A stretch of DNA of 64,000 nucleotides, taken from NCBI RefSeq assembly GCF_013414345.1, contig NZ_CP058670.1:2480001-2544000 (forward strand), in the 5' to 3' direction. Below the pieces are notes generated by a model. The model was not told the DNA's origin, did not search any database, and saw only the letters and a program-made list of their open reading frames with translations. Of this stretch, positions 20,442-24,717 are shown one piece after another; position 1 is the stretch's first letter, and every line of letters begins with the position of its first letter. Source of the DNA: Microcella indica (GTDB lineage Bacteria > Actinomycetota > Actinomycetes > Actinomycetales > Microbacteriaceae). The translations under genes were made by a program, and so were the position numbers.

Positions 20442-21431
20442 ATGCGCTTCGGACTCTTCATTCCCCAAGGCTGGCGGCACGACCTGGTCGACATCGACCC
20501 CGACGAGCAGTGGGCGGTGATGAAGCGCCTCGCGCAGCACGCCGACGCGGGCCCGTGGGAGTCGATCTGGGTCTACGACCACTTCCACACCGTCCCCGTG
20601 CCGAGCGAGGAGGCGACGCACGAGGCGTGGACCCTCATGTCGGCGTTCGGCGCCGTCACCGAGCGCGTGCGCCTCGGGCAGATGTGCACGTGCATGGGCT
20701 ACCGCAACCCCGCGTACCTCGCCAAGGTCGCCGCGACGGTCGACCACGTCTCGCACGGGCGCGTCGAGATGGGCATCGGCGGCGGCTGGTACGAGCACGA
20801 GTGGAACGCCTACGGGTACGGGTTCCCGGAGATCGGAGACCGCCTGCGGATGCTCGACGAGGGCGTGCAGATCATGCGGCAGGCCTGGTCGGAGGGGACC
20901 GCGACGCTGAACGGCCGCTACTACAAGGTCGAGGGCGCGATCGTTCGGCCCCTGCCGGTGCAGAAGCAGGGCATCCCGTTCTGGATCGCCGGAGGCGGTG
21001 AGAAGGTCACGTTGCGCATCGCCGCGCAGTACGGGCAGTACACGAACTTCGCCGGCACCCCCGAGGAGTTCACCCACAAGAGCGAGGTGCTGCGCGGGCA
21101 CTGCGAGCGGCTCGGCACGAGCTTCGACGCCATCACGCGGTCGTCGAACTACAACACCGTCGTCGGGCGCGACGAGGCCGAGGTCGCCGAGCGCATCGCC
21201 ACCATCGAGGCGCGGCTCACGCGGTACCTCGGGGCCGAGCGTGCGGAGAAGGCCGTCGCCGATCTGCGCAACGGTCGCGGGCTTGCGGGAACCCCTGAGC
21301 AGATCATCGAGCAGTTGCAGGGCATGCAGCAGCTCGGCATGACCTACGCGATCACCTACTTCGCCGAGGCGGCCTACGACACGAGCGGCATCGAGCTGTT
21401 CGAGCGCGAGGTCGTGCCCGCGCTCGTCTAG
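20442..21431 (+). CDS. LLM class F420-dependent oxidoreductase
   Basis: A 329-aa luciferase-like monooxygenase-fold enzyme. Family features include the N-terminal MRFGLFIPQGW strand, LGQMCTCMGYRNPAYLAKVAAT, the GIGGGWYEHEWNAYG segment and the C-terminal GTPEQIIEQLQ. The protein resembles actinobacterial F420-dependent members (TIGR03560-like), so F420H2 is a more likely cofactor than FMN, though this is inference. Substrate unknown. Confidence 0.87.
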   Translation: MRFGLFIPQGWRHDLVDIDPDEQWAVMKRLAQHADAGPWESIWVYDHFHTVPVPSEEATHEAWTLMSAFGAVTERVRLGQMCTCMGYRNPAYLAKVAATVDHVSHGRVEMGIGGGWYEHEWNAYGYGFPEIGDRLRMLDEGVQIMRQAWSEGTATLNGRYYKVEGAIVRPLPVQKQGIPFWIAGGGEKVTLRIAAQYGQYTNFAGTPEEFTHKSEVLRGHCERLGTSFDAITRSSNYNTVVGRDEAEVAERIATIEARLTRYLGAERAEKAVADLRNGRGLAGTPEQIIEQLQGMQQLGMTYAITYFAEAAYDTSGIELFEREVVPALV

Positions 21432-21597
21432 GCCCTGCCGCCCGAGCCCCTGCCGCCCAAGCCCCTCCCGCCCCGAGCCCTCACCGCCTGCGCCGTCGAC
21501 ACTGTGCCGCTACGCGGCAACTGTGCTGTCGCGAACGAGCACACTGGCGATTCTGAAGCACAGTCGTCGGGGCGACGGGCGACGGGGCGCGTCCGCA
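21432..21597. other. Intergenic stretch with a small hairpin
   Basis: No gene seen. A short imperfect repeat of 'CCGCCC(G/A)AGCCCCTGCC' type opens it, and TGCCGC-TAC-GCGGCA forms a 6-bp hairpin that could end transcription of the LLM gene. Confidence 0.4.
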
Positions 21598-21640
21598 TTG
21601 ACAGACATCGATATAGCTGAGTACATTGATGTTCATCGAT
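21598..21640 (+). promoter_or_regulatory. Sigma70-type promoter overlapped by ArsR-like operator
   Basis: TTGACA (21598-21603) is followed after 18 bp by TACATT (21622-21627). Three ATYGAT half-sites occur: ATCGAT at 21607-21612, ATTGAT at 21625-21630 and ATCGAT at 21635-21640; the last two, with CATCGATG being palindromic, cover the -10 and start region. This resembles operators of ArsR/SmtB metal-sensing repressors. No ArsR gene is adjacent. Confidence 0.55.
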
Positions 21641-21659
21641 GTTTACAGGAGGTGACGAC

Positions 21660-21707
21660 ATGACCATGTTCACTGAGGACGGCTGCTGCGGCGGCGTCTG
21701 CTGCTGA
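21660..21707 (+). CDS. 15-codon Cys-rich leader peptide
   Basis: A tiny open reading frame reading MTMFTEDGCCGGVCC, directly behind a very strong ribosome site, AGGAGGTGA at 21647-21655. Four of its last seven codons are TGC and the stop follows at once. It has its own promoter with an ArsR-like operator, is followed 13 bp later by a strong hairpin and then by a LysE-family exporter. Cysteine-rich upstream frames acting in cysteine-responsive attenuation are known in mycobacteria; this could be an analogue, or a metal-binding micropeptide. Translation is inferred, not shown. Confidence 0.6.
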   Translation: MTMFTEDGCCGGVCC

Positions 21708-21720
21708 CACGACACCGGTT

Positions 21721-21761
21721 GCGCACCGCGCACATCGGCCCTGCCGGCCAGCGCGGTGCGC
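21721..21761 (+). terminator. Strong hairpin between leader peptide and LysE gene
   Basis: GCGCACCGCGC (21721-21731) and GCGCGGTGCGC (21751-21761) are perfect 11-bp arms around a 19-nt loop that itself contains a small GGCC...GGCC pair. No U-run follows, so it may be an attenuator or a structure that hides the region before the LysE ribosome site rather than a simple terminator. Confidence 0.55.
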
Positions 21762-21808
21762 GACCCCTCTCACTCACGTCAGCACGACCCTCCAGAAAGG
21801 AACCGAGC

Positions 21809-22549
21809 GTGAGCGATGCGCTCTTCTCCAGCCTCACCGCAGGCCTGCTCGCCGGGTACGCGATCGCGATCCCGGTCGGGGCGATCGCGGCGCTCCTCAT
21901 CACGCATGGCGCGCGCCACGGCGCACGCGTCGCCGCGGGCGGCGCACTCGGTGCCGCGACGGTTGACGGCCTCTACGCGACGATCGCCGTCGTGGCAGGA
22001 GCAGCCATCGCGCCGGTCATCGTGCTCATCGAAGAACCTCTCCGCTGGCTCTCCGTCATCGTGCTCGTCGCGCTCGGCATCATGATCGCGCTGCCCGGGC
22101 TGCGCGCAGCGCCGAGGCACGTGCCGCCGATCAGCGCGGATGCTCCCACCGACGCAGCCCCGGCCGACGCACCCCTGGCCGACGCAGCCTTGAGCGACAC
22201 GACCCCGGCGCCCGCCCCGTCCGGCAGCACGGCGACGGCCTCGCGCACGACCACCGCGCGCCGGCTCTTCCTCACCGTCGGCGCCCTCACGCTCGTGAAC
22301 CCCGTGACGGTCGTCTACTTCGCCGCGCTCATCGGCAGCTCGACGCTCGCCCTCGACGCCTCGCCGCTCGAGCGCATCGTCTTCGTCGCGGCGGCGTTCG
22401 CCGCCTCGCTCAGCTGGCAGCTGCTGCTCACGACCGCGGGCGCCCTCGCCGGCCGGGCCCTCGTCGGGCCGATCGGCGCGCGCATCACGGCCCTCGTGGG
22501 GGGCGGCATCATCATCCTCCTCGCCGTGCGCGCGGCGTGGGACGGCTGA
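21809..22549 (+). CDS. LysE family exporter
   Basis: A 246-aa membrane protein starting at a GTG preceded by GAAAGGAACC. Two hydrophobic halves of three helices each flank a long hydrophilic Ala/Asp/Pro-rich loop (residues about 105-150) containing the repeat ADAPTDAAPADAPLADAA. The first half, AGYAIAIPVGAIAALLITHGARHG, and VNPVTVVYFAAL in the second half match the LysE/RhtB family of amino-acid and metal exporters. Given the Cys-rich leader and ArsR-like operator upstream, cysteine, a thiol conjugate or a metal(loid) is the plausible cargo, by inference. Confidence 0.82.
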   Translation: MSDALFSSLTAGLLAGYAIAIPVGAIAALLITHGARHGARVAAGGALGAATVDGLYATIAVVAGAAIAPVIVLIEEPLRWLSVIVLVALGIMIALPGLRAAPRHVPPISADAPTDAAPADAPLADAALSDTTPAPAPSGSTATASRTTTARRLFLTVGALTLVNPVTVVYFAALIGSSTLALDASPLERIVFVAAAFAASLSWQLLLTTAGALAGRALVGPIGARITALVGGGIIILLAVRAAWDG

Positions 22550-22563
22550 GCGGACCTGCGACC

Positions 22564-24717
<2,154 letters not shown>

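Follow-up and report, generated by a model that had tools for sequence, protein, structure and literature searches.

A 15-codon frame in the window, meaning the whole 64,000-nucleotide stretch of the Microcella indica genome under analysis, is probably a gene for a 15-residue thiol peptide that belongs to an ArsR (arsenite) regulon and would bind As(III), a reading that draws on sequence comparison and that we hold with somewhat better than even confidence. That the frame is a peptide gene is argued by operator pairs that, genome-wide, are confined to the arsR-arsC gap and this promoter, by the recurrence of such frames at ArsR loci in varied position, including a Chloroflexota locus with the order ArsR, ArsM and peptide gene, and by an excess of silent over replacement changes together with a shared Cys-rich, Lys-free and acidic composition.

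Frame, promoter and operators in the window

The frame (21660-21707, plus strand; ATG at 21660, TGA at 21705-21707) encodes MTMFTEDGCCGGVCC, with 4 Cys in 15 residues, and its two TGCTGC pairs lie at 21684 and 21699. A Shine-Dalgarno sequence, AGGAGG (21647-21652, plus strand), stands 7 nt 5' of the ATG, and a predicted sigma-70-type promoter, TTGACA-18-TACATT (21598-21627, plus strand), agrees with the consensus at 10 of 12 positions; shuffled sequences gave a mean of 0.0 (sd 0.1). The window has a single CC-GG-x-CC codon pattern, which none of 100 shuffles reproduced, and an exact 21-mer of the frame has a single occurrence in the genome. A search of 20500-22600 against Rfam returned nothing at E <= 1, and neither the window peptide (padded) nor its Chloroflexota counterpart described below (L029) matched an NCBIfam model, hidden Markov models being weak on sequences this short.

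The sequence-only reading of this DNA had reported a 15-codon frame with a ribosome site, two TGC-TGC pairs, a hairpin 13 nt on and a LysE gene, all of which were confirmed in position. It had also placed three ATYGAT motifs over the promoter; they are present, and are better read together with an ATTGAC at 21597 as two palindromic operators of the form ATYGAY-N4-RTCRAT. Operator 1 (ATTGACAGACATCGAT, 21597-21612, plus strand) covers the -35 box, and operator 2 (ATTGATGTTCATCGAT, 21625-21640, plus strand) overlies the last part of the -10 box together with the probable start site. The first of these is one base apart from ATTGACAGCCATCGAT, which lies in the divergent arsR/arsC gap of a Rhodoglobus MAG (L048).

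The one-contig genome (2.585 Mb) contains five matches to the pattern ATYGAYNNNNRTCRAT and 0 to a reversed-pattern control, two of the five lying in the arsR-arsC gap, two at the tiny frame and one inside long open frames. A looser pattern, ATYGATGTTCATCGAT with up to 3 mismatches, is less striking, its two window matches being both strands of one site and at least 2 matches arising in 8 of 100 shuffles. The operator form at the tiny frame is that of the genome's own arsR promoter and is rare elsewhere in the genome; the earlier proposal of an ArsR-type operator therefore gains weight, and the assignment of the putative window operators to the ArsR type, tied to the genome's own arsenic repressor locus, is supported.

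At that locus (L073:6468-8160, about 509.5-511.2 kb of C1), arsR and arsC are divergent, a MIP channel gene lies behind arsR, and two operators of the same form occupy the gap; the match of arsC to TIGR02689 (7.4e-30) is below that model's cut-off. The repressor carries Cys at 15 and 16, plus CVC, and the CgArsR type is described in PMC11868830 as having Cys15-Cys16-Cys55. Along the contig, arsR is approximately 2.0 Mb from the tiny frame, or approximately 0.6 Mb the other way if the contig is circular. Strict and relaxed scans of the arsR-arsC locus gave no tiny frame. Acr3 had no match in the window genome and, with a MIP channel gene behind arsR, arsenite may exit through the channel.

Recurrence of tiny frames at ArsR loci

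The genome's ArsR was used as a query against 249 Microbacteriaceae genomes, of which 160 match at 1e-15, and 101 loci were examined, comprising 100 from the upper part of the ArsR-similarity list (a few having been passed over) and the genome's own. Some genomes are represented by two loci, and identical frames occur at two of the loci; the L167 frame equals that of L166, and L167 was excluded from the hairpin and ArsR-paired counts. A strict rule (8-40 aa, at least 4 Cys, at least 20% Cys, a Shine-Dalgarno sequence) returned 24 frames in 1.03 Mb, compared with 1, 1 and 0 in three Markov-1 controls. An operator adjoins 23 of the 24, with the ATG 8-47 nt past the nearest operator in 18 frames and 436-473 nt past it in 5. 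L124 (basic, 4.7 kb from an operator) was dropped, and a basic, CC-ending frame at L205 was likewise put aside. A relaxed scan contributed four further frames chosen by eye, the others, including a CC-ending non-acidic frame in L137, being set aside as chance.

A tiny frame is thereby present in 27 of the 101 Microbacteriaceae ArsR loci (23 strict and 4 relaxed) and none was found in 74, a proportion that should not be read as the frequency in ars operons at large, because the loci were ranked by ArsR similarity. The 27 frames encode acidic peptides of 12-28 aa with 4-10 Cys and a Cys-Cys end, an ending that was not part of the strict rule and is carried by 23 of 23 strict frames. With its Shine-Dalgarno sequence, at least two CC pairs, CC end and adjoining ArsR operator, the window frame fits this group. 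As regards gene order, the frame precedes arsC in 16 of the 27 loci and follows it in 5, and in 6 there is no arsC motif close by on the strand; in one of these six, L132, a MIP gene is next. At another of the six, L113:4167-4484 (minus strand), the gene 3' of the tiny frame is a PF02583 metal-sensitive repressor gene, not arsC.

Elsewhere in the class, 40 loci chosen from other families yielded 3 with a frame (L248, L251 and L257), L228 and L260 having been dropped from this set for lack of a Shine-Dalgarno sequence by the rule. At L248 and L251 the frame stands beside a divergent ArsR, and at L257 the order on a single strand is arsR, MIP, frame, FAD-type oxidoreductase and arsC. The L251 frame itself points away from ArsR and contains the end of a convergent gene, so that no gene lies directly downstream to be regulated. 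In the Rhodoglobus MAG, with divergent arsR/arsC and ATTGACAGCCATCGAT in the gap, a frame for MNDGCCGGPCC lies 3' of arsC. A Chloroflexota MAG (L029:340-1663) has ArsR, ArsM (NF008823, 1.3e-90) and then a gene for a 24-aa Cys peptide, MTDLPVLSSCDCDCSDGCCGGGCC; by eye, a T-rich terminator-like hairpin lies past that gene. Two Gemmatimonadota MAGs (L030 and L034) encode MSKEMGACCDCDCCSDGCCGGDCC and MMDDTEPCCDCECCKDGCCGGDCC, with the same ending, away from recognised ars genes; past the stop of each a hairpin was seen by eye, with a T-run in L034, and these frames possibly belong to a wider soft-metal peptide family.

The frequent proximity to arsC (which the frame adjoins at 21 of 27 loci, as well as at the Rhodoglobus locus) is what a small thiol partner of arsenate reductase would lead one to expect, the peptide donating or relaying electrons or taking arsenite from ArsC. 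We consider such a role quite unlikely, as the frame in Microcella lies at a distance from arsC, that in Chloroflexota adjoins ArsM, and redox partners usually carry a CxxC motif within a fold.

Several wider searches were less productive. A related codon pattern gave 13 matches in 394 genomes of the class, none of which, except the window, was by eye a short frame preceded by a Shine-Dalgarno sequence; among 24 matches in genome collections, 5 were by eye tiny frames with a start and a Shine-Dalgarno sequence and 19 were not; and the sole viral-contig match had no in-frame start codon past the last stop. A plasmid tblastn with one 23-aa relative returned nothing at E <= 1. ArsR matches occur in 139 plasmid records, and four of these ArsR regions, when scanned for CC-ending frames, had none.

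LysE and the Microcella relatives

The frame is flanked on its 5' side by an LLM-class oxidoreductase gene (20442-21431, plus strand) and on its 3' side by a LysE-family translocator gene with a GTG start (21809-22549, plus strand; PF01810, 4e-11, 43.2 bits against a gathering threshold of 25.6). A LysE match is found in 16 of 26 Microcella genomes, the window genome counted. In most of the congener loci read, LysE is close behind the LLM gene, and in the printed upstream stretches it mostly starts some tens of nt past it. The Cys-pair pattern is absent near LysE from the stretches fetched for the other 15 congeners, two matches falling on the clpB side.

The exact codon pattern of the tiny frame is limited to 2 of the 26 Microcella genomes, the second being M. 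pacifica, where the frame lies past the same LLM gene with operator-like sites and where the 60-contig draft yields no LysE match at 1e-15. Directly past that frame, at the contig end (L045), the DNA resembles by eye the end of an insertion sequence. The two Microcella frames differ by 1 silent and 2 replacement changes, too little for showing selection. No such frame turned up less than about 1.5 kb from any of the 12 ArsR matches in 11 Microcella genomes, and two of these genomes carry one elsewhere. Lack of conservation of the mini-ORF and its Cys codons in close relatives, which had been named as grounds for doubt, is accordingly seen in part within the genus, yet the family recurs in the ars loci of other genera.

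Taken together, the adjacency of LLM and LysE genes in congeners and the arrangement in M. pacifica lead us to a picture in which a cassette of operator, frame and hairpin seems to sit between LLM and LysE. LysE as a constant partner of the frame was rejected, 15 congeners having LysE with no adjoining frame and M. pacifica having the frame with no detected LysE; it is probably a bystander, one that in the window genome may gain some arsenic-inducible read-through. The same distribution weighs on the idea that the frame encodes a modified or exported precursor peptide with LysE as its exporter. LysE does lie directly 3' of the frame in the window, but in those congeners it has no adjoining frame, in the M. 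pacifica draft the frame comes with no LysE match, and no maturation gene was recognised among the frames read beside the tiny frame, so that we give this idea almost no weight.

Composition and constraint of the peptides

The 29 distinct peptides are strongly alike in composition, with 31% Cys (start Met not counted), no Lys, almost no Arg or aromatic residues and a net charge of -1 to -6, the Cys content being partly a selection rule of the scans. Of 31 pairs whose peptides are at least 60% identical, 30 show a higher silent than replacement rate, as illustrated by L166/L181 (5 silent and 0 replacement changes), L153/L154 (6 and 1) and L154/L180 (9 and 3); the exception is L177/L189, with 0 silent changes and 1 replacement. 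Since a choice of pairs by peptide identity favours few replacements, the comparison was repeated with pairs chosen by ArsR similarity alone, covering 20 loci with a script-found ArsR and leaving out eight in which none was found as well as the window, which stands outside the locus set. Silent changes again exceeded replacements, in 15 of 15 pairs (pooled pS 0.59, pN 0.28), a constraint that partly reflects the Cys content demanded by the scans.

These comparisons, together with the Cys-Cys end kept in all strict frames, speak against the transcript itself being the product, as an arsenic-induced small RNA with a 3' hairpin in which the frame is incidental. A strong hairpin near the promoter would suit such an RNA; given the silent excess in relatives, we regard this as very improbable.

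The hairpin and the question of attenuation

A hairpin with 15-nt arms and no T-run follows the stop (21717-21765, plus strand; arms 21717-21731 and 21751-21765, 93% complementary), its perfect 11-bp stem (21721-21731/21751-21761) starting 13 nt past the stop codon. The 70 nt past the window stop have a predicted fold of -40.2 kcal/mol (z -5.2 against 100 shuffles). The sequence-only reading had proposed that Cys-codon attenuation controls LysE. In its general form, this reading makes the frame a cysteine-responsive leader, in which a shortage of Cys-tRNA, for example when arsenite ties up thiols, slows ribosomes at the terminal Cys codons and alters the hairpin and thereby read-through into arsC or LysE. 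The Cys codons directly 5' of the stop are what such a leader needs, 16 of 27 loci have arsC 3' of the frame, 19 of 29 frames have a fold with z < -2 in the 70 nt past the stop as against 10 of 150 windows drawn at random from those loci, and poly-Cys attenuators have been reported in mycobacteria (cited in PMC9094748).

The features examined, namely position, structure and selection, nevertheless match such a leader poorly, and we take it to be unlikely. The frame comes after arsC in 5 of 27 loci and in L048, stands mid-operon in L257 and alone in L251, and 4 of the 6 frames that follow arsC keep a fold with z < -2, so that the hairpin accompanies the frame in both gene orders. In the window, the hairpin is predicted for ribosome positions at the start, over the first Cys codons and, with the hairpin shortened, at the stop; fold predictions there gave no competing structure, and there is no T-run terminator. 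The excess of silent over replacement changes likewise points away from a leader. For LysE in particular, a gene that accompanies the frame inconstantly, the proposed Cys-codon attenuation is not supported; the alternative that the sequence-only reading also offered, in which the peptide itself would bind metal or arsenite, is the better one. Past the stop, z is above 0 in L140, L148, L190, L135 and L184, and in L045 the fold is broken by foreign sequence (z -1.0). The predicted hairpin is most simply taken as a 3'-end or stability element, with partial attenuation of the next gene as a possible addition, and a frame that may also be last, mid-operon or alone is best read as a peptide gene.

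Proposed mechanism and significance

In the mechanism that we propose for the peptide gene, chromosomal ArsR would occupy both operators when arsenite is absent and block the promoter. Arsenite would free ArsR and allow a short transcript to be made, the 3' end of which the hairpin would shield or terminate. Once the peptide is translated, its two vicinal Cys pairs would bind As(III), or Sb(III) and soft metals, and the bound As(III) would be buffered or passed on, in a cell with an arsenate reductase and an aquaporin-type channel and with no detected Acr3 pump. We infer As(III) binding because of the vicinal Cys pairs and of a measured model: in PMC11212059, a 10-residue CC...C peptide takes up As(III) via three thiolates with a log K of 6.35 at pH 7.5.

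Counted against the peptide-gene reading are the 74 loci without a frame, the Gemmatimonadota frames away from recognised ars genes, the rapid degradation to which peptides of 11-28 aa may be subject, and the hairpin between frame and arsC, which is also expected of an attenuator. More tentatively, and with somewhat less than even confidence, we suggest that at least two phyla harbour an overlooked ars-operon gene family, whose 11-28-residue dithiol peptides would catch As(III) near arsenate reductase and deliver it for efflux or methylation. The Microcella member would have moved, and arsenic would thereby have gained control of an amino-acid-type LysE exporter.

Few bacterial resistance systems have been studied as closely as arsenic operons, yet about one in four of the Microbacteriaceae ArsR loci analysed (27 of 101) carries a frame that is short enough to escape routine gene finding. 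No title or abstract opening listed in searches of the open-access PMC library describes such peptides in ars operons. Should the peptides bind arsenite, they would provide a minimal genetically encoded metalloid ligand, useful for sensors and clean-up, as well as a test of the lower size limit for a functional metal-binding gene; if the carrier reading is true, they would be among the smallest gene-encoded metalloid carriers.

Comparison with known systems

The loci described here resemble CgArsR-type (type 3) ars operons in their divergent ArsR, paired palindromic operators, arsC and a repressor with CC and CVC, and differ from them in the added gene for an 11-28-aa Cys peptide and, in Microcella, in its location at a separate locus. 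With bacterial metallothioneins such as SmtA and MymT and with phytochelatin-type thiol peptides they share a Cys-rich, acidic composition with almost no aromatic or basic residues, and a metal-type repressor site. SmtA and MymT are about 50 aa long, whereas the peptides here are much smaller, have no family match in the two cases scanned, and are candidate metal binders.

Work by Canestrari in 2020 reportedly described poly-Cys attenuators in mycobacteria. Such cysteine-responsive attenuators likewise combine a short frame with adjacent Cys codons, often 5' of an operon gene, and, by the title of a reference cited in PMC9094748, the mycobacterial attenuator is a leaderless short frame. The window frame, in contrast, is not leaderless, with AGGAGG 7 nt 5' of its ATG, and it has ArsR operators and a position that is not fixed 5' of a gene: it stands ahead of a gene that it might control in the window and in most relatives, but not in the 5 of 27 loci in which the frame follows arsC, nor in L251, where it is alone. 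A further likeness is to the model peptide of the AfArsR As(III) site, NCCHGTRDCA, which is a short, disordered As(III)-binding peptide with a vicinal CC and a further Cys; it is part of a repressor, whereas the candidate peptides described here would each be the product of a separate gene.
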